DNA from: Rhizobiales bacterium Ga0077545
GTDB lineage: Bacteria > Pseudomonadota > Alphaproteobacteria > Rhizobiales > Methylopilaceae
Direction: 5' to 3'
Assembly: GCA_001464335.1 (NCBI GenBank)
Contig: LNEV01000014.1
Span: forward strand, 1-64,000
Length of the DNA: 64,000 nucleotides
In this document: piece by piece, positions 1,190 through 31,815 of the stretch
Layout: the number at the start of each line of letters is the position of its first letter
How positions within the stretch are numbered: position 1 is the first letter of the stretch
Made by a program: the position numbers and the translations under genes
Notes under the pieces: model-generated
Database searches by the model: none
Told to the model about the DNA's origin: nothing
The model's input: only the letters and a program-made list of their open reading frames with translations

Positions 1190-3127
1190 TTGCACGCTCG
1201 CGCCTACAGGGACTCTTTCAACCGCGTGCGCGCAGTGGAGATCGGCGACGAGCCGCCGCTGCGCACCGACGGAGAAGACCCCGGCTCCAGCCGCTCGGTG
1301 AACATTCGCTGGTTCGCGTCGACGATTCTTGCCGGCGTGCTCGGCATGGGCCTGCTCGGAGCGGCGATCGCGACATCGCTCGATGGCGTCGCCACGAGCG
1401 CGAGCCCTGGCGTCTTTGCCCGCCTCGATCCCAACGGCAACCGCGCGCTGCGCGGCACCAACGCTGTCCGCAAGGGAGACCAGATCGCGCTCGGCCGCGG
1501 CATGGACGAAGACCGGCAGACATTTCGTGTGTCGACGACGACCAAGGTCGGCAACCGAGAGGTCGTTCGCACGCGCCCGGTCACCCGCATCTCGGCCAAC
1601 CTGTCGCTGACCTCTCTCAACGTCGAGGTTCCGTCCTTCAACCCCGCAGCCATGTTTGCTGAGAACGACGAGCCCTTGCCGGCTCTTGACGCGGAGCCCG
1701 CGGCGGACGGCGATATCTCTTATGTCGTCAGCAATCTCGACGGGATGAAGATCGGCATCGATGACGGACCGACGACCCCGCTCGAAGAGGTCTTGGCGAG
1801 CGTGCGCGACACCGCCTCCATCGAGATGGTTCGCGGGAACGACTTCCAGTCGGCCTTCGGCGGCCTCCAGATACCTGGCCAGGAAAGCGCCGCGCTGACG
1901 CCGGTCATGCCGGCCTCCAACATGACCGTTATTGCAAAGACGTCGGCACATACGGCGACGGCGGGCGAGGACGGGGAACGCGTCGTCACCGTCCAGTCGA
2001 ACGAACGGCTCACCGAAATCCTGATCCGCGAAGGCGCCTCGCAAGACGAAGCGCGCGACATCGCCGCCGCCTTCGGGGCCCAGTCGGGGTATGGCACCCT
2101 CGGCCTTCAGCCCGGACAAAGCGTGCGCATCCTGATGGCCCCGACGCCGAACGGGCCCCAGCAGCCGGTGCGCATCATTGTAGTCTCCGGCAAGACGGAG
2201 AGTATTGTCGCGCTGTCGGATACAGGCGGCTATGTGTCGGTGGCCGATGCCCCCGAAATCGCGCAGGAAGGCGAAATCGTCAGCGACGAGGAGACCGCAT
2301 CGGCGGGCAGCACCAGCCTCTACAAGAGCTTCTACGCCACCGCGCTGACGAAGGGCGTGCCGAAACCCGTCGTCGACGAACTCGTTCGCGTGTTCAGCTA
2401 CGACACGGACTTCCAGCGCAAGGCCGGACGCGGCGACAGCTTCCAGGTTCTGTACGCCAGCGACGATGCGGGGCAGATCGACGGCAAGCCGGAAATTCTC
2501 TACTCTGCGCTCATCTCGGGCGGCGAGGCGCGGCGTTACTACAGATTCCTGACGCCCGACGGGACGGTCGATTATTACGACGAGGAAGGCCGCTCGGCCC
2601 GCAAGTTCCTCGTCCGCAAGCCCATCGGCCAGGCCGTCCTGCGTTCGGGCTTCGGCATGCGGCGGCATCCGATCCTCGGCTATTCGAAAATGCACACCGG
2701 CATCGACTGGGCCGCGCCGCGCGGCACGCCGATCTATGCCGCCGGCAACGGCGTCGTCGAGCATGCCACCCGCAAGGGTGCGTACGGCAATCAGGTCCAG
2801 GTCCGTCATGCCAATGGCTACGAGACGGCGTATTCACACATGACCGGCTTCGCGCGCGGCCTGAAAGCAGGCCAGCGCGTGCGTCAGGGTCAGGTGATCG
2901 GCTATGTCGGCTCGACCGGCCTGTCGACAGGCCCGCATCTTCATTACGAGGTTCTGGTGAACGGCCGTTTCGTCAATCCGATGCGCATCAAGGTGCCGCG
3001 CGGGCAGGAGCTCGAAGGCGCCGTGCTCACCGAGTTCCAGCGCGAACGCGACCGCATCGACACGCTCACCGGAAACACGGGAACCGGCTCCGCCCAGCTC
3101 ACCCGGCTGGACCAGAGCGGCGGCTGA
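1190..3127 (+). CDS. M23 family murein endopeptidase, membrane anchored
   Basis: About 645 residues. The N-terminus carries the conserved cytoplasmic tail ending in GDEPPL and then one transmembrane segment (about residues 43-66). A long periplasmic middle part follows, and then a C-terminal LytM/M23 zinc peptidase domain. The zinc ligands are visible as HTGID and, about 80 residues later, HLHYE. Such proteins cleave peptide cross-links in peptidoglycan. The open frame extends back to 701, into the rrn leader, which cannot be the real start. A TTG at 1190 is preferred because GAGGA lies nine bases upstream; an in-frame GTG at 1154 is the alternative. The gene diverges from the rRNA operon and ends flush against the haemoglobin gene on the other strand. 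Confidence 0.85.
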   Translation: MHARAYRDSFNRVRAVEIGDEPPLRTDGEDPGSSRSVNIRWFASTILAGVLGMGLLGAAIATSLDGVATSASPGVFARLDPNGNRALRGTNAVRKGDQIALGRGMDEDRQTFRVSTTTKVGNREVVRTRPVTRISANLSLTSLNVEVPSFNPAAMFAENDEPLPALDAEPAADGDISYVVSNLDGMKIGIDDGPTTPLEEVLASVRDTASIEMVRGNDFQSAFGGLQIPGQESAALTPVMPASNMTVIAKTSAHTATAGEDGERVVTVQSNERLTEILIREGASQDEARDIAAAFGAQSGYGTLGLQPGQSVRILMAPTPNGPQQPVRIIVVSGKTESIVALSDTGGYVSVADAPEIAQEGEIVSDEETASAGSTSLYKSFYATALTKGVPKPVVDELVRVFSYDTDFQRKAGRGDSFQVLYASDDAGQIDGKPEILYSALISGGEARRYYRFLTPDGTVDYYDEEGRSARKFLVRKPIGQAVLRSGFGMRRHPILGYSKMHTGIDWAAPRGTPIYAAGNGVVEHATRKGAYGNQVQVRHANGYETAYSHMTGFARGLKAGQRVRQGQVIGYVGSTGLSTGPHLHYEVLVNGRFVNPMRIKVPRGQELEGAVLTEFQRERDRIDTLTGNTGTGSAQLTRLDQSGG

Positions 3128-3550
3128 TCAGCTCGTCCGCTTTACATGGCGCGGCGCGGCAAGTTCACCACGCTGATTGGCAATCCCGAATTCGAAACTG
3201 TCGGCGATCATGCGCGCGCGCTGGATGAAGACGCCCGCGGCCTCTGCCGTCAGAACATCGCGGGCCGTCGCTTCGAAAAGATCGAGCCAGCGGTCGAAAT
3301 GTTCGGCACGGATGTCCGGCAGCATAAGATGCGCCCGCATCGGCCTGCCCTCATAGCGCCGCGTCCGCAGCACGACGGACGACCAGAAATCGCACAATTT
3401 GGCCAGATGCTCGTCCCAGTCGCCGACCGCGCGGCTGAAGACAGGCCCGATGACATCGTCTTCGCGCACGCGTCCGTAAAACGTATGGACGAGATTGCGG
3501 ATCTCGTCCTCACCGATTCCCGGCGGCGGTGCGGTGCCCATCAGCGACAT
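3128..3550 (-). CDS. Group III truncated haemoglobin
   Basis: 140 residues, the usual size of a trHb3 globin. The region around HTFYGRVREDDVIGPVF, the middle stretch with WSSVVLRTRRYEGRPM and the later HFDRWLDLF are typical of the group (seen). The His of the HFDRW segment is the likely proximal haem ligand (inferred from the family). These globins bind O2 or NO in the cytoplasm; the physiological role here is unknown. The stop codon abuts that of the M23 gene with no spacer, so the two genes are convergent. Confidence 0.88.
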   Translation of the reverse strand: MSLMGTAPPPGIGEDEIRNLVHTFYGRVREDDVIGPVFSRAVGDWDEHLAKLCDFWSSVVLRTRRYEGRPMRAHLMLPDIRAEHFDRWLDLFEATARDVLTAEAAGVFIQRARMIADSFEFGIANQRGELAAPRHVKRTS

Positions 3551-26170: not shown

Positions 26171-27715
26171 TTACTGGAACGAGCCCGGATTGACGATCTG
26201 CGGTGCGCCGAATTGCTGGAACGCTGCGTCGGCGCGGGAGGCCGGCGCCTGCGGAGGCGAAGGGGCGGCCTGAGGCTGGGTCTCTACGGCAGGCGGCGTG
26301 GTCTGCTGTGCGGCCGGAACCGGAGCCTGAGACGCGCGCGGGGCCGGCGCAGGAGGAGCGACGACCGCGCGCGGGGCAGGCGACGACGCCGGACGCGTGG
26401 CGGCCGGACGCGGCGCGGGCGGCTGTTCGGCCTGCGGCTTGGCCATGAAGCCGAGCCAGCGCGAATAGAACGGCTTTTCTTCGGATGTCGGCGCCAGTGA
26501 AGCGGTGATCGCACGATCGGGCTCGACGCCGCGGCGGGTTTGCGCGGAAGCGGTCTGCGGAGCGGCCGCGGCGGGCGTCGTCGAGCCGGTCGTTTCCGTC
26601 GACTTGCCGCCACGGAGCCAGGCGAATGCACCGGTGGATTTGGCGGGTTTTTCCTGCTGCTCCGAATAGGGAGAGGGAACCGGCATCGGCACCGCGCTCT
26701 GCGTGTCGGCCATCGCCAGCGCGAAGCTCGACTGCGGTGTACGGGCGGCGGCATCCGACGTCATGACGACGGATGCGGGAGCCGGCTTCGGCTGGTGGAT
26801 CGGATCCTTCAACGAGCGCCGCAGACGCCCGTTCTGCGGCGTGTAGGCCTCGGCTGTCTGAAGCCCGCTGGACACCAGTTTCTCGAACTTCTCGGTGTCC
26901 TGACGCTGCTTTCCGGAGACGGCGGACGCGATCAGCGGATTGACCTCGTGAACGGGGCAGGCCGCACCCGGCTCGAAGGCGCCGTCCTTGGCGTCGGCGT
27001 TGAAGACGTATTTGCGATCGCAGACATTCACCTTCGGCTCGAGCTTCGTCACCTCGAACTGGTCTGCGCCCTCTTTGAGGTTCTTCCAGAACTCGAAATT
27101 CGGATCGTTGCGGCGACGGGCCATATTGTCGGCCGTCATGCGGAACGGAAAGGCCTGAACCTGGAAACTCGGCTGCCCGGCGCTGAGCGCCTCACGCGCC
27201 AGCGCGTAAACTTCGCCCATCTGCTCGTCGGTCATGGCGTAGCAGCCCTTGGAGAGGCAATCGCCATGAACCATCAGATGCGCGCCGGTGCGCCCGTGGC
27301 TGCGGTCGAACGCGTTCGGGAAACCGAGATTGAACGACAGGTAGTATTGCGAGTTCGGATTCATCTGGCCCATCGAGACCTGATAGAATCCCTCGGGCGA
27401 CTGGCCGTCGCCCTCGGTCTTCTTCGGCCCGAGCGTCCCTGAGAAGCGGCAGATCTCGTAGGTCTTCAGAAGCGCGTAGCGGCCCTTCTCGTTCTGCTTC
27501 CAGATTTCGAGCTCGCTGTCCTCCTTGTAGATACGCACAAGGATCGGGTCGCGCCGCGTCATGCCCTTTTCTTTCATCAGGGCCAGCGTCTTGTTGGGGA
27601 TCTGCTGGAGATGCCTGTTCGCGCCCTTGGCAACGACCGTGTCGGTCTGGCATCCGCCCAGCGCGAGCGCGGCGAGACCGAGAGCAACCAGAACGAAGAG
27701 CGGGCGACGGGTCAT
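26171..27715 (-). CDS. L,D-transpeptidase lipoprotein (YkuD fold) with long Pro/Ala tail
   Basis: 514 residues. The lipobox LALGGC places a lipid-modified Cys at about 22. The catalytic domain (about 55-250) holds the active-site motif HGDCLSKGCYAM, where the second Cys is the nucleophile. The rest (about 300-514) is a Pro, Ala and Gln-rich low-complexity tail. YafK-type members form or remove meso-diaminopimelate links or release Braun lipoprotein. Upstream, at 27823-27848, three TTAA blocks spaced 11 bases apart look like CtrA sites. Confidence 0.88.
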   Translation of the reverse strand: MTRRPLFVLVALGLAALALGGCQTDTVVAKGANRHLQQIPNKTLALMKEKGMTRRDPILVRIYKEDSELEIWKQNEKGRYALLKTYEICRFSGTLGPKKTEGDGQSPEGFYQVSMGQMNPNSQYYLSFNLGFPNAFDRSHGRTGAHLMVHGDCLSKGCYAMTDEQMGEVYALAREALSAGQPSFQVQAFPFRMTADNMARRRNDPNFEFWKNLKEGADQFEVTKLEPKVNVCDRKYVFNADAKDGAFEPGAACPVHEVNPLIASAVSGKQRQDTEKFEKLVSSGLQTAEAYTPQNGRLRRSLKDPIHQPKPAPASVVMTSDAAARTPQSSFALAMADTQSAVPMPVPSPYSEQQEKPAKSTGAFAWLRGGKSTETTGSTTPAAAAPQTASAQTRRGVEPDRAITASLAPTSEEKPFYSRWLGFMAKPQAEQPPAPRPAATRPASSPAPRAVVAPPAPAPRASQAPVPAAQQTTPPAVETQPQAAPSPPQAPASRADAAFQQFGAPQIVNPGSFQ

Positions 27716-27822: not shown

Positions 27823-27848
27823 TTAACCTTGCGTTAACAATAGGTTAA
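27823..27848. promoter_or_regulatory. Candidate double CtrA binding site
   Basis: TTAA at 27823, 27834 and 27845 are each separated by seven bases, giving TTAACCTTGCGTTAAC and an overlapping second TTAA-N7-TTAA. The CtrA consensus in Alphaproteobacteria is TTAA-N7-TTAA(C). It lies 108-133 bases upstream of the L,D-transpeptidase start and touches the accA stop codon. Regulation is inferred from the motif only. Confidence 0.55.
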
Positions 27849-28804
27849 GCGGGTATGTGGCGGCCGATGGCGAGGAACTTCTCGCGGCGGTGATTGCGGA
27901 TTTCCGTCCGGTCCATCCCGCTCAGCCCCTCCAGAGCCTGCCAGACCACGCGTCCGACGGAGGCGATCGTCGCGTCGCGATCGCGGTGTGCCCCGCCAAC
28001 CGCCTCGGGAATGATCCCGTCGATGATGCCGAGCCGGAGCAGATCCTGCGCGGTGATCTTCAGATTTGCGGCCGCATCCGCCGCACGGGCCGAATCGCGC
28101 CACAGGATCGAGGCCGCTCCTTCGGGCGAAATCACGCTGTAGATCGAATGCTCCAGCATCTGGACATTGCTTGCCGTGGCCAGCGCGATGGCCCCGCCGG
28201 AGCCGCCTTCTCCGATGATGACCGCCACGTTCGGCACGCCGAGATTGAGGCAGGCTTCGGTGGAGCGGGCAATGGCCTCGGCCTGCCCGCGCTCCTCGGC
28301 GTCGATGCCCGGATAGGCGCCGGCGGTATCGACCAGCGCGATGATCGGCAGATCGAAGCGATCGGCGGTCTCCATCAGGCGCACCGCCTTGCGGTAGCCC
28401 TCCGGACGCGCCATGCCGAAATTGTGCTTGAGGCGGCTTTCCGTATCGGAGCCCCGCTCATGGCCAATCACCAGCACGCTCTCGCCGTAGAAGCGGGCAA
28501 AGCCGCCGACGATTGCGGCGTCGTCGCCGAATTTGCGGTCTCCGGCAAGTTCGGTGAAATCTTCGAACAGGCTCGCAATGTAATCGAGGAAATGCGGGCG
28601 GTTCGGGTGCCGCGCGACCTGCGTCTTCTGCCAGGGCGTCAGCTTGCCGTAGAGATCGACCAGCGCCTCGTCCGCCTTGGACCGCAGGCGGCCGATCTCA
28701 TCTTCCACGTCGACGCCTTCGCCGCTCGCACCGAGCGCCTGAAGCTCGTCGACCTTGGCTTCGAGTTCCGCGACGTGTTTTTCGAAATCGAGATAGCTGC
28801 GCAT
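27845..28804 (-). CDS. accA: Acetyl-CoA carboxylase carboxyltransferase subunit alpha
   Basis: 319 residues, the standard AccA length. The N-terminal coiled region with [15 protein letters not shown] is followed by the crotonase-like carboxyltransferase with [36 protein letters not shown] and [11 protein letters not shown]. It catalyses malonyl-CoA formation with AccD. Its stop TAA overlaps a TTAA of the putative CtrA site. Confidence 0.97.
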
Positions 28805-28901
28805 GCGTTTTTTGGAGCCTCTGTCCGCTCCGGACCGACGGAGCGCGAGAGGCCCGGGCGAGCGGCGCGCAAACTGCTGTCACATCGCCGCCAAGTCAAG
28901 C

Positions 28902-29828
28902 TTAGTCCGAATCGCCGAGCGGGTGAAGGTCGCGAACCATGCTCGCCAGACGCTCGTCCAGGACATGCGTGTAGATCTGTGTGGTGGCGACATCGGCATG
29001 GCCGAGCAATTGCTGCACCGAGCGCAGATCCGCCCCGTTCTGAAGAAGATGGCTCGCAAAAGCGTGGCGAAGGACATGCGGGCTGACACGCTTCGGTTCG
29101 ATGCCCGCGCGGATCGCGACGGCCTTGAGATCGCGGGCAAAAGCCTGCCGTGTCAGGTGCCCGTTCTCCGCGAGAGCCGGAAAAAGAAACGGGGCGGGCT
29201 TCTCCTGCCGCGCATCGAGCAGGTCGAGATAAAGTTTCGCCGCGCGCCGCGCTGCCTCGGTCAGCGGCACAAGGCGCTCGCGGCCGCCTTTGCCGCGGAT
29301 CGACAGGATCTGCGTGCCCGCCCGCGCGGCCGAGCGCGGAAGCGTGACGAGTTCGGACACACGAAGCCCGCTCGCATAGAGGATTTCGAGCAGCGCCGAC
29401 ATGCGGGCCGCCCGAAGACGTTCGATCAGTGGCTTCTCCTCGTCATCCGCGCCTTCGGCTGCCGCGGTCAGGAGATCGTCGACTTCTTTCACCGAGAGCA
29501 CTTTGGGCAGCGGGCGCCCGCGTTTGGGCCCCGTCAGCGCCGCGCCGGGATCATCGCCCCTGATGTTTTCGGTGTAGAGGAAGCGGTGGAACTGCTTCAC
29601 CGCCGAAAGCCGCCGCGCGGCGGAGGAGGCCGCGAAGCCGCGCGCCGCCAGATCCGACAGCCAGCCACGCACGTCTTCCGCCGTCACCGTAAGAGCATCG
29701 CGGCCCTGGGAGACGAGAAAATCGGCGTAATCGTCGAGATCCCGGCGATAGGCCTCAAGCGTGTTGTGCGCCGCACCGCGTTCGGCCGACAGCATTTCGA
29801 GGAAACTCTCGACGTGACGCGCGGTCAT
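28902..29828 (-). CDS. xerD: Tyrosine recombinase XerD
   Basis: 308 residues. The N-terminal SAM-like core-binding domain (about 1-90) is followed by the catalytic domain with the full set: Arg in LYASGLRVSE, Lys in RGKGGRERLVP, His-x-x-Arg in HVLRHAFASHLL, His in LLGHADV and nucleophile Tyr in TQIYTHV. With XerC it resolves chromosome dimers at dif. The ATG at 29828 overlaps the stop of a small upstream ORF (ATGA). No accessory mobile element surrounds it, so it is the housekeeping enzyme. Confidence 0.93.
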   Translation of the reverse strand: MTARHVESFLEMLSAERGAAHNTLEAYRRDLDDYADFLVSQGRDALTVTAEDVRGWLSDLAARGFAASSAARRLSAVKQFHRFLYTENIRGDDPGAALTGPKRGRPLPKVLSVKEVDDLLTAAAEGADDEEKPLIERLRAARMSALLEILYASGLRVSELVTLPRSAARAGTQILSIRGKGGRERLVPLTEAARRAAKLYLDLLDARQEKPAPFLFPALAENGHLTRQAFARDLKAVAIRAGIEPKRVSPHVLRHAFASHLLQNGADLRSVQQLLGHADVATTQIYTHVLDERLASMVRDLHPLGDSD

Positions 29829-29965
29829 TTGTCGATGTCGATGGGCACCGTGACCGTCATTTCCCGGGGCGTCGGCTCGACGAAGGTCGCGAGCGCCCAG
29901 ACCACGGCAAAGACGATCCCGCCCAGAACGGCAAGATTGCGCAAGAGTCGAAATGTGCTCGGCAT
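29825..29965 (-). CDS. 46-residue single-pass membrane protein coupled to xerD
   Basis: The minus strand encodes 46 residues: a short basic start (MPSTFRLLRN), one hydrophobic helix (LAVLGGIVFAVVWALATF, about 11-28), then a C-terminal segment with EPTPREMTVTVPID. It ends in a four-base ATGA overlap with xerD, so it has ribosome-level coupling. I recall similar short ORFs ahead of xerD in other Hyphomicrobiales but cannot check this. Function is unknown. It is not an artefact of GC bias in the usual sense, as it has a coherent hydrophobic helix and a start and stop in exact operon position. Confidence 0.72.
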   Translation of the reverse strand: MPSTFRLLRNLAVLGGIVFAVVWALATFVEPTPREMTVTVPIDIDK

Positions 29966-30091
29966 GGGGGTAGGACCGGCCTCCCGGCCTCAAGGATTCA
30001 CCTCCGGGATTAAGAATCACGCCGGGACCGGGAACGCAACGCCCTTGCGGAGGGGCGAGCTTTGGTGGAAACCACCGGCCCGGAGACGAAC

Positions 30092-30703
30092 ATGACGGCC
30101 GCCGCGCAATCCCCGAACACGGATGAGAAACTTCAGGAAGAAGGCGCCAGGGCCCGCGCGCTCCTGAACGGCCGCTCGATCGTGCTTGTCGGCATGATGG
30201 GCGCGGGCAAAAGCTCTGTCGGCCGCCGCCTCGCCAAAGCCCTCGATCTGCCGTTCGTCGATGCCGACACCGAGATCGAGAAGGCCGCGGGCATGAGCAT
30301 TCCCGACATCTTCGCGACGCACGGCGAGCCGGAATTCCGCGCCGGGGAGCGGCGCGTCGTGGCGCGCCTTCTCGAAGAGGGCCTTTCCGTCATCGCGACC
30401 GGGGGCGGCGCGTTCATCGATGACGGCACGCGCGAGAAGGTGCGGGCACGCGGCATTTCGGTCTGGCTCAAGGCCGAGGTCGATGTGCTGCTGAAGCGCG
30501 TCAAGAAACGCGGCGGACGCCCGCTTCTGAAGAACGGCGATCCCGAACAGATTTTGCGCGATCTGCTTGCCCAGCGCGAGCCGATCTACGCGCTTGCCGA
30601 CATCACCGTCATCTCGCAGGACGTGCCTCACGAGGCCATGGTGGCCGAGACCTTGCGCGAAATCGGTCAGCATCTTTCCGAAGAGAAACAGGATTCCGCA
30701 TGA
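30092..30703 (+). CDS. aroK: Shikimate kinase
   Basis: 203 residues. The P-loop GMMGAGKSSVGRRLA (about 34), the shikimate-binding VDADTEIE, and GGGAF (about 108) are all present, as is the lid region with RGGRPLL. It phosphorylates shikimate for aromatic amino acid synthesis. A GGAG site precedes the ATG at 30092; an upstream GTG at 30065 is less likely. It overlaps aroB by four bases (ATGA). Confidence 0.96.
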   Translation: MTAAAQSPNTDEKLQEEGARARALLNGRSIVLVGMMGAGKSSVGRRLAKALDLPFVDADTEIEKAAGMSIPDIFATHGEPEFRAGERRVVARLLEEGLSVIATGGGAFIDDGTREKVRARGISVWLKAEVDVLLKRVKKRGGRPLLKNGDPEQILRDLLAQREPIYALADITVISQDVPHEAMVAETLREIGQHLSEEKQDSA

Positions 30704-31815
30704 GCACTACCGGCTTTGTCACCGTTCCGGTCGCGCTCGGCGAGCGCTCCTATGAGATCCGCATCGGATCGGGCCTGATGACGGGGGTCGGCGCGGACGC
30801 GAAGGCGCTCGGGGCGCGCGCCGCAACCGTGGTGACGGATGCGCATGTCGGCCCGCTTTATCTCGATTCCGTCCGCGCAAGCCTTGAGGCCGCAGGTCTC
30901 GCCGCCTCCGACATCGTGCTTCCGCCCGGCGAAAGCACCAAAAGCTTCCGGCATCTGGAAGAGGTCAGCAACGCCCTTCTTGCGGCGAAGATCGAGCGCG
31001 GCGATCTCGTCATCGCGCTGGGCGGCGGCGTCATCGGCGATCTAGCCGGTTTTGCCGCCGCGATCCTGCGGCGCGGCGTCCGGGCGATCCAGATCCCGAC
31101 CTCGCTGCTGGCCCAGGTCGATTCCTCCGTTGGCGGCAAGACGGGCATCAATACGAAAGCCGGCAAGAACCTCATCGGCGCCTTCCACCAGCCGAGTCTC
31201 GTTCTGGCCGACACGGACGTCCTCGACACGCTGTCGCCGCGCGAATTCCGGGCGGGCTATGCCGAGGTCGTCAAATACGGGCTGATCGACGACCTGAGCT
31301 TTTTCTCGTGGCTCGAAAAGAACTGGACCGAGGTCTTTGCCGGCGGCGAGGCGCGCACGAAGGCGATCGCGACGAGTTGCACATCGAAAGCCTCGATCGT
31401 GGCCCGCGACGAATTCGAAACCGGAGACCGTGCGCTTCTCAATCTCGGCCACACCTTCGCGCACGCGCTCGAAGCCGCCGTCGCCTATGATGGCACGCGT
31501 CTCGTCCACGGCGAGGCGGTTGCCATCGGTCTGGCGCTGGCCTTCGAGTTTTCCGCGCGCCTTGGCCTCACCTCCGAGGACGATGCAGACCGCGTCCGCG
31601 ACCATCTCAAGGCGGTGGGGCTGCCGACCCGCATCCAGGATATTCCCGGCGAGGTCGGCGATGCGGCCCATCTCCTCGATCTGATGGGGCAGGACAAGAA
31701 GGTGTCGGGCGGGCGGCTGACCTTCATCCTCGCACGCGGCATCGGGCGCTCCTTCATCGCCTCCGACATCCCGCCGCAGAACGTGCTGGGCTTCCTGTCC
31801 GAAAAACTCGCCTGA
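30700..31815 (+). CDS. aroB: 3-dehydroquinate synthase
   Basis: 371 residues. The NAD-binding GGGVIGDLAGFAA, the substrate and zinc region with SVGGKTGIN, GAFHQP, EVVKYGLI, and the zinc His residues in NLGHTFAHALE and VHGEAVAIG are visible. It forms 3-dehydroquinate from DAHP. It is translationally coupled to aroK. Confidence 0.97.
   Translation: MSTTGFVTVPVALGERSYEIRIGSGLMTGVGADAKALGARAATVVTDAHVGPLYLDSVRASLEAAGLAASDIVLPPGESTKSFRHLEEVSNALLAAKIERGDLVIALGGGVIGDLAGFAAAILRRGVRAIQIPTSLLAQVDSSVGGKTGINTKAGKNLIGAFHQPSLVLADTDVLDTLSPREFRAGYAEVVKYGLIDDLSFFSWLEKNWTEVFAGGEARTKAIATSCTSKASIVARDEFETGDRALLNLGHTFAHALEAAVAYDGTRLVHGEAVAIGLALAFEFSARLGLTSEDDADRVRDHLKAVGLPTRIQDIPGEVGDAAHLLDLMGQDKKVSGGRLTFILARGIGRSFIASDIPPQNVLGFLSEKLA

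Follow-up and report, generated by a model that had tools for sequence, protein, structure and literature searches.

A small membrane protein gene overlapping xerD is conserved in Alphaproteobacteria and appears to have an older partner gene

INTRODUCTION

The window analyzed here is a stretch of 64,000 nucleotides from Rhizobiales bacterium Ga0077545 (contig LNEV01000014.1, positions 1 to 64,000). Within it a frame of 46 codons, here called SP, ends in the very bases that begin xerD, a tyrosine recombinase gene. The locus raises two questions: whether so short a frame is a real gene and whether its partner is the recombinase that it overlaps or something else. A first-pass annotation had suggested a membrane protein acting with the recombinase at the septum, or a peptide that simply drives xerD translation. 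Here SP is followed through Alphaproteobacteria, where the gene that it was earlier paired with seems to encode an unstudied exported protein, here called Big, and not XerD.

RESULTS

SP overlaps xerD and is predicted to cross the membrane once

The features of the locus are as follows.

26171 to 27715, minus strand: murein L,D-transpeptidase-like gene (LdtF/DpaA/YafK-like, below cut-off), after accA in many relatives
27845 to 28804, minus strand: accA, acetyl-CoA carboxylase alpha subunit, the gene that follows xerD here and in many relatives
28902 to 29828, minus strand: xerD, tyrosine recombinase, the downstream gene (family models)
29825 to 29828, minus strand: ATGA, the SP stop overlapping the xerD start codon (-4 overlap), seen in the sequence and also in relatives
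29825 to 29965, minus strand: SP, 46-amino-acid single-pass membrane protein, ATG start and TGA stop (conservation and selection)
29828 to 29878, minus strand: SP tail, residues 30 to 46, EPTPREMTVTVPIDIDK, putatively periplasmic (positive-inside rule)
29879 to 29935, minus strand: predicted transmembrane segment, SP residues 11 to 29, LAVLGGIVFAVVWALATFV (mean Kyte-Doolittle value of 2.49 over 19 residues)
30062 to 30703, plus strand: aroK, shikimate kinase, divergent neighbor (open reading frame bounds; true start not settled)
30700 to 31815, plus strand: aroB, 3-dehydroquinate synthase, downstream of aroK (name taken from annotated aroB homologues in relatives)

The sequence confirms the first-pass description of a 46-residue frame with one hydrophobic segment that ends in an ATGA overlap with xerD; the frame, on the minus strand at 29825 to 29965, reads MPSTFRLLRNLAVLGGIVFAVVWALATFVEPTPREMTVTVPIDIDK. 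Its net charge is +2 ahead of the helix (residues 11 to 29) and -2 behind it, and because positive charge precedes the helix and negative charge follows, the tail is placed in the periplasm, with the N terminus presumably inside. Three alignments serve for comparison: A1, the first SP profile, from the window's order; A2, a profile from 48 sequences; and A4, a class alignment of 57 rows. A 19-residue stretch with a Kyte-Doolittle value of at least 1.6 is found in 48/48 rows of A2 and 57/57 rows of A4. In the tail, P31 is invariant in A1 and A2, and R34 and P41 reach at least 90% in A1. The window's SP has both family traits, one hydrophobic helix near the N terminus and a tail with P31 and an IP or VP near residue 41, and the idea that membrane protein and tail alike are conserved is borne out.

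The downstream gene was also named correctly. Its product scores 324.4 bits against the NCBIfam XerD model TIGR02225, slightly below the cut-off of 329.6 and ahead of the XerC model at 263.5; a second Xer copy in the same genome is only 36% identical to XerD. The xerD start is the ATG at 29828 to 29826, with the ATGA common to this start and the SP stop. Such -4 overlaps are common between bacterial genes. Over positions -20 to -1 ahead of xerD, no match to the Shine-Dalgarno sequence exceeds 3 bases, and since no Shine-Dalgarno-like sequence lies ahead of it, translation of xerD is likely coupled to that of SP in the window. The nearest Shine-Dalgarno-like GGAGG of SP itself lies 14 bases from its ATG, distant for a standard site, and a scan for sigma-70-type promoters over 29700 to 30200 found none.

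Two further observations concern the surrounding DNA. On the plus strand, a 430-codon open frame runs antisense to xerD and SP (28803 to 30095) and probably reflects the high G+C content of coding on the opposite strand. Beyond accA, the product of the L,D-transpeptidase-like gene scores 231 bits against the LdtF/DpaA/YafK model, whose cut-off is 365, and has a long C-terminal part rich in proline and alanine.

SP is conserved beside xerD and under purifying selection

A search with the SP protein gives hits at E ≤ 1 in 56 of 61 genomes, a count that takes in the window's genome and a few chance matches (e.g., G034); among relatives of the order, SP is unfound in G020, G033, and G034. The best 30 SP loci, comprising the window's own and those of 29 relatives, were examined for gene order. 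As in the window, where SP is the first gene after divergent aroK and lies upstream of xerD, SP is upstream of xerD in 29/29 relatives, with aroK divergent on the other side in 28/29. A possible xerD start at the -4 overlap is present in 21 of the 29 and missing in 8. For weaker SP matches, 20 further stretches were taken, 5 of them from genomes outside the order. Eighteen hold SP beside divergent aroK, while L062 and L068 are chance places. Sixteen of these 18 have xerD downstream, nine of them with Big between SP and xerD; the exceptions are L059, which stops at a contig end, and L065 (G024), where SP adjoins aroK and no xerD is found in the ~3.2 kb downstream.

A second set of 80 named xerD loci was picked by XerD, not by SP, although some of its genomes overlap those of the first set. 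SP adjoins xerD, upstream and within 256 bases, in 75 of them, so the conservation upstream of xerD that the first-pass annotation had put forward as a check is found in both sets. It is not found at xerD in L203, L215, L247, and L257, and L260 is uninformative, as it starts 56 bases before xerD. An xerD start at -4 occurs in 33 of the 75 loci with SP and none at -4 in the other 42; in 17 of the 75, some on short contigs, aroK is not found in the fetched upstream DNA.

High nonsynonymous change, like lack of conservation, would speak against a gene, and neither is found. Within the genus, the pN/pS ratio of SP is 0.204 to 0.304 (six same-genus pairs), and in a sister genus its median is 0.381, with a range of 0.053 to 0.742 (55 pairs, from 11 of 13 searched genomes). 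As controls, shifted frames of the sister-genus DNA give medians of 1.42 and 2.19, and its three antisense frames give 1.49, 0.58, and 2.25, one of these also being below 1. Conservation and purifying selection rule out a chance open reading frame, and by these sequence comparisons SP is a genuine conserved protein-coding gene for a small membrane protein.

The first-pass annotation had also called SP unannotated, which is only partly true. Orthologues in Sinorhizobium meliloti Ak57 (LZK74_30430, UIJ94391.1) and Rhizobium sp. NLR16a (WP_210632904.1) occupy the same aroK-xerD slot, with 46 to 49% identity over 41 of the 46 residues of SP; both are recorded as "hypothetical protein" with no function assigned. 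In S. meliloti Ak57, a pair resembling a RelE/ParE-type toxin and a ParD-type antitoxin sits between aroK and the SP-xerD operon (L035:1795-2213, minus strand).

SP is found in most surveyed alphaproteobacterial families

Among 385 genomes of the class, the A1 profile matched 17 at E ≤ 0.01 and the A2 profile matched 136 at E ≤ 0.1. Because many of the weak A2 matches are due to chance, the survey was made by gene order instead of by profile, and occurrence counts include only matches checked in this way. Of 96 genomes of the class, almost all from different families, 91 have an XerD-like match at E ≤ 1e-30. The best 64 of the 91 by E-value were taken, minus G000, G058, and G069 (already examined) and G087 (contig start), giving the DNA upstream of xerD at 60 loci, each from another family. 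As 27 of the 91 were not taken in, the survey leans to genomes with a window-like XerD.

In 42 of the 60 loci, aroK diverges from an array of SP, Big, and xerD. Seven have aroK, SP, and xerD without Big, one has SP and Big without aroK, and one (G123) has aroK adjoining xerD without SP. Five stop at a contig end (G067, G125, G076, G124, and G127), and in four xerD is apart from aroK (G146, G070, G106, and G080). SP is therefore at xerD in 50 of the 60, 49 by a domain E of <0.01 and one, L156, by place, its match being weak (E of 0.19). In G146 and G106, xerD is elsewhere and SP remains with aroK and Big, the Big frame of G106 having only 347 amino acids. G070 keeps aroK and Big with an SP-like frame that is only weak, and in G080 neither SP nor Big is found. 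Counting G146 and G106, and G076, where SP is on another contig, SP is present in 53 of the 60 surveyed families.

The class consensus of the SP tail is DxPxPxxxVEKxIPxDRF (A4), and that of the window's order is xPxPREMTVxIP (A1). In a search of 249 Pseudomonadota genomes, whose output does not state the share outside the class, every SP match at E < 1e-5 is alphaproteobacterial. The best match outside the class (2.4e-4) covers 33 positions within a 464-amino-acid frame and is probably a chance hydrophobic match. One survey locus, L184 (G086), has an SP-like protein of ~190 residues with a long extension past the usual tail (2803 to 3375 of the turned locus).

Big is a larger neighbor of SP with an exported, helical appearance

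In 43 of the 50 SP-bearing survey loci, the Big gene, of ~1.5 to 2.3 kb, lies between SP and xerD (e.g., L055:1946-4042 and L134:1531-3390, both plus strand). The calls hold with the own locus left out of the profile, at E-values of at most 3.3e-28. The protein has roughly 500 to 700 residues, start codons being not all settled, and signal peptides judged by eye suggest that it is exported. Six Big proteins gave no family match in Pfam or NCBIfam, and no Pfam TPR family was found in them at E ≤ 1. The predicted structure is all helical (mean pLDDT, 84; pTM, 0.81). TPR and other solenoid chains are prominent among its VIA-align rows, with a best Z of 9.7, where values below about 13 may reflect only a common repeat arrangement and a family missing from the rows carries no weight; Foldseek of the model against the PDB gave no match at E ≤ 0.001. 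Big looks like a widespread, exported, undescribed helical protein, and its fold may be TPR-like. Plasmid records hold no Big match at E ≤ 1e-5. Two cysteines are invariant in 23 Big sequences (C220 and C242 in L134 numbering).

Big starts at a fixed place within SP and is not found in the window's genome

In 28 of the 43 loci, or 29 counting a GTG, Big has an ATG in its own frame exactly 20 bases ahead of the point where the SP stop codon ends, and no other start offset between -60 and +150 in that frame is seen more than three times. Because Big starts inside the last SP codons, the two are expected to be translated together. The overlapping ATG falls mostly within an SP codon pair that encodes N or D and then D or E (AATGAC, GATGAC, etc.), which implies that tail conservation in Big-bearing lineages is partly a matter of DNA: the overlapping ATG, not the protein, may be behind part of it. 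The PREM..IP tail of lineages without Big is not accounted for in this way.

An overlapping Big start next to SP, common in the class, is absent in the window, where SP overlaps xerD. Big is not found at E ≤ 0.001 in the window's genome, which is 93.9% complete, nor in three genus-mates. Across 61 genomes searched for Big, 13 matched, two of them by short and weak matches, leaving 11 that are likely real, all from other families of the order; in G033, Big is at a contig start. Six of the seven surveyed genomes whose locus is without Big also lack it elsewhere at E ≤ 0.01, and in the seventh, G086, the sole match is a short one elsewhere (E of 0.001). Since Big commonly intervenes in the class and is not found in the window's genome, the SP-xerD overlap looks derived. 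The simplest reading of these gene orders would be that Big was lost and the SP stop then met the xerD start, an order of events that we infer. SP is kept without Big in 7 of the 50 SP-bearing survey loci, in the window's genome, and in the 50 of the 61 genomes searched for Big that show no convincing match to it; Big is therefore not required for SP to be retained.

DISCUSSION

We lean, with modest confidence, toward SP being an inner-membrane microprotein with an envelope role, encoded at the head of an old alphaproteobacterial operon from which Big was lost in the window's lineage, the xerD overlap coming later. The breadth of SP over the surveyed families suggests a basic envelope function. 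In the ancestral state, SP and Big would be made together as a pair, and SP would anchor, or work beside, such an envelope partner by way of its conserved tail. Loss of Big in the window's lineage would have left the SP stop codon overlapping the xerD start, with SP keeping its own envelope role while its translation feeds ribosomes to an xerD that has no ribosome-binding site of its own. The envelope role, like any contact between SP and Big, we infer from this pattern.

Three other accounts of SP have to be weighed against this one. SP could be a mere leader open reading frame that opens the start site of xerD, or of Big, the peptide itself being inert. The -4 overlap with xerD in the window, the -20 overlap with Big in 28/43 loci, and the missing ribosome-binding site ahead of the window's xerD would all fit. 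The pN/pS ratio, however, is well below 1 where shifted-frame controls exceed 1, helix and tail are kept over the surveyed families, and SP is retained without the -4 overlap in 8/29 relatives and 42/75 named loci. We regard an inert leader as unlikely. The earlier suggestion that SP simply drives xerD translation stands to the extent that coupling is likely, but as a sole role it is too little, because the amino acid sequence is under selection and many loci have no -4 xerD start.

A function with the recombinase itself, in which SP would be a membrane factor for XerD or FtsK-XerCD that tethers or tunes septal chromosome dimer resolution, draws on the position of SP within 256 bases upstream of xerD in 75/80 named loci. 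Moreover, Hyphomicrobiales that lack Big retain SP beside xerD even when no aroK is found in the fetched upstream DNA (17/75 named loci). The XerD recombinase is cytoplasmic, however, and the conserved tail of SP is predicted to lie away from it, in the periplasm. Nor is the gene constantly beside xerD: Big comes between them in 43/50 SP-bearing survey loci, SP remains beside aroK and Big in genomes with xerD elsewhere (G146 and G106) or adjoins aroK with no xerD near (G024), and xerD occurs without SP in G123 and four named loci. Because the recombinase is cytoplasmic and the commonest survey neighbors of SP are aroK and Big, we consider a role with XerD quite improbable; the septal role first suggested has gained no positive evidence beyond adjacency. 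The last account makes SP a membrane toxin of small size or a mobile selfish gene of another sort; SP is indeed short and hydrophobic, and a ParD/RelE-type pair adjoins it in S. meliloti Ak57. Yet SP keeps the same slot by housekeeping genes in most survey loci, has a single match in the window's genome, and has no constant antitoxin-like partner, which leaves this idea with very little credibility.

The envelope reading can be taken a step further, though only tentatively: SP and Big may form an alphaproteobacterial envelope module, of which Hyphomicrobiales like the window's organism have lost Big and kept SP, now tied to xerD. The SP tail probably contacts a partner in the envelope, which would be Big in the majority of surveyed families and a different one in the window's organism. 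That SP outlasted Big and became tied to xerD would point to a second partner. If the pairing is correct, an exported solenoid has its start codon within the last codons of a microprotein, and both are made in step. The window's locus also illustrates how a tight overlap such as that with xerD, seemingly a functional link, can arise as a by-product of gene loss.

SP and Big are widespread in the class yet match no Pfam or NCBIfam family above cut-offs. A literature search, judged from listings, found no paper describing the SP gene; neither xerD nor aroK occurs in the main text of PMC10117765, and the passages of PMC7901474 considered here are not relevant to the SP gene. PDB sequences hold no SP match of weight. 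SP resembles PsbY (PF06298) in its one hydrophobic helix, with a weak, helix-only match (E of 0.057), but it scores 13.7 bits, below the Pfam gathering cut-off of 24, and its conserved tail is unmatched; the match to PsbX is likewise weak and confined to the helix (E of 0.44 to 0.62). Kinship with PsbY or PsbX was rejected, the matches being read as a composition effect.

A general class is made up of small, single-pass proteins of the inner membrane that work next to a larger protein of the envelope. SP is like them in having fewer than 50 residues, one helix, a one-sided charged tail, and a place in an operon with larger genes, and differs in matching no curated Pfam or NCBIfam family above cut-off. 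Big resembles TPR and other alpha-solenoid proteins in its all-helical model and in the TPR chains among its fold matches (Z ≤ 9.7), and differs from them in lacking a Pfam TPR match (six proteins) and a Foldseek match at E ≤ 0.001. Set beside these systems, SP is a new, uncharacterized small single-pass membrane protein, and its fixed overlap with an exported-looking solenoid is the more unusual part.
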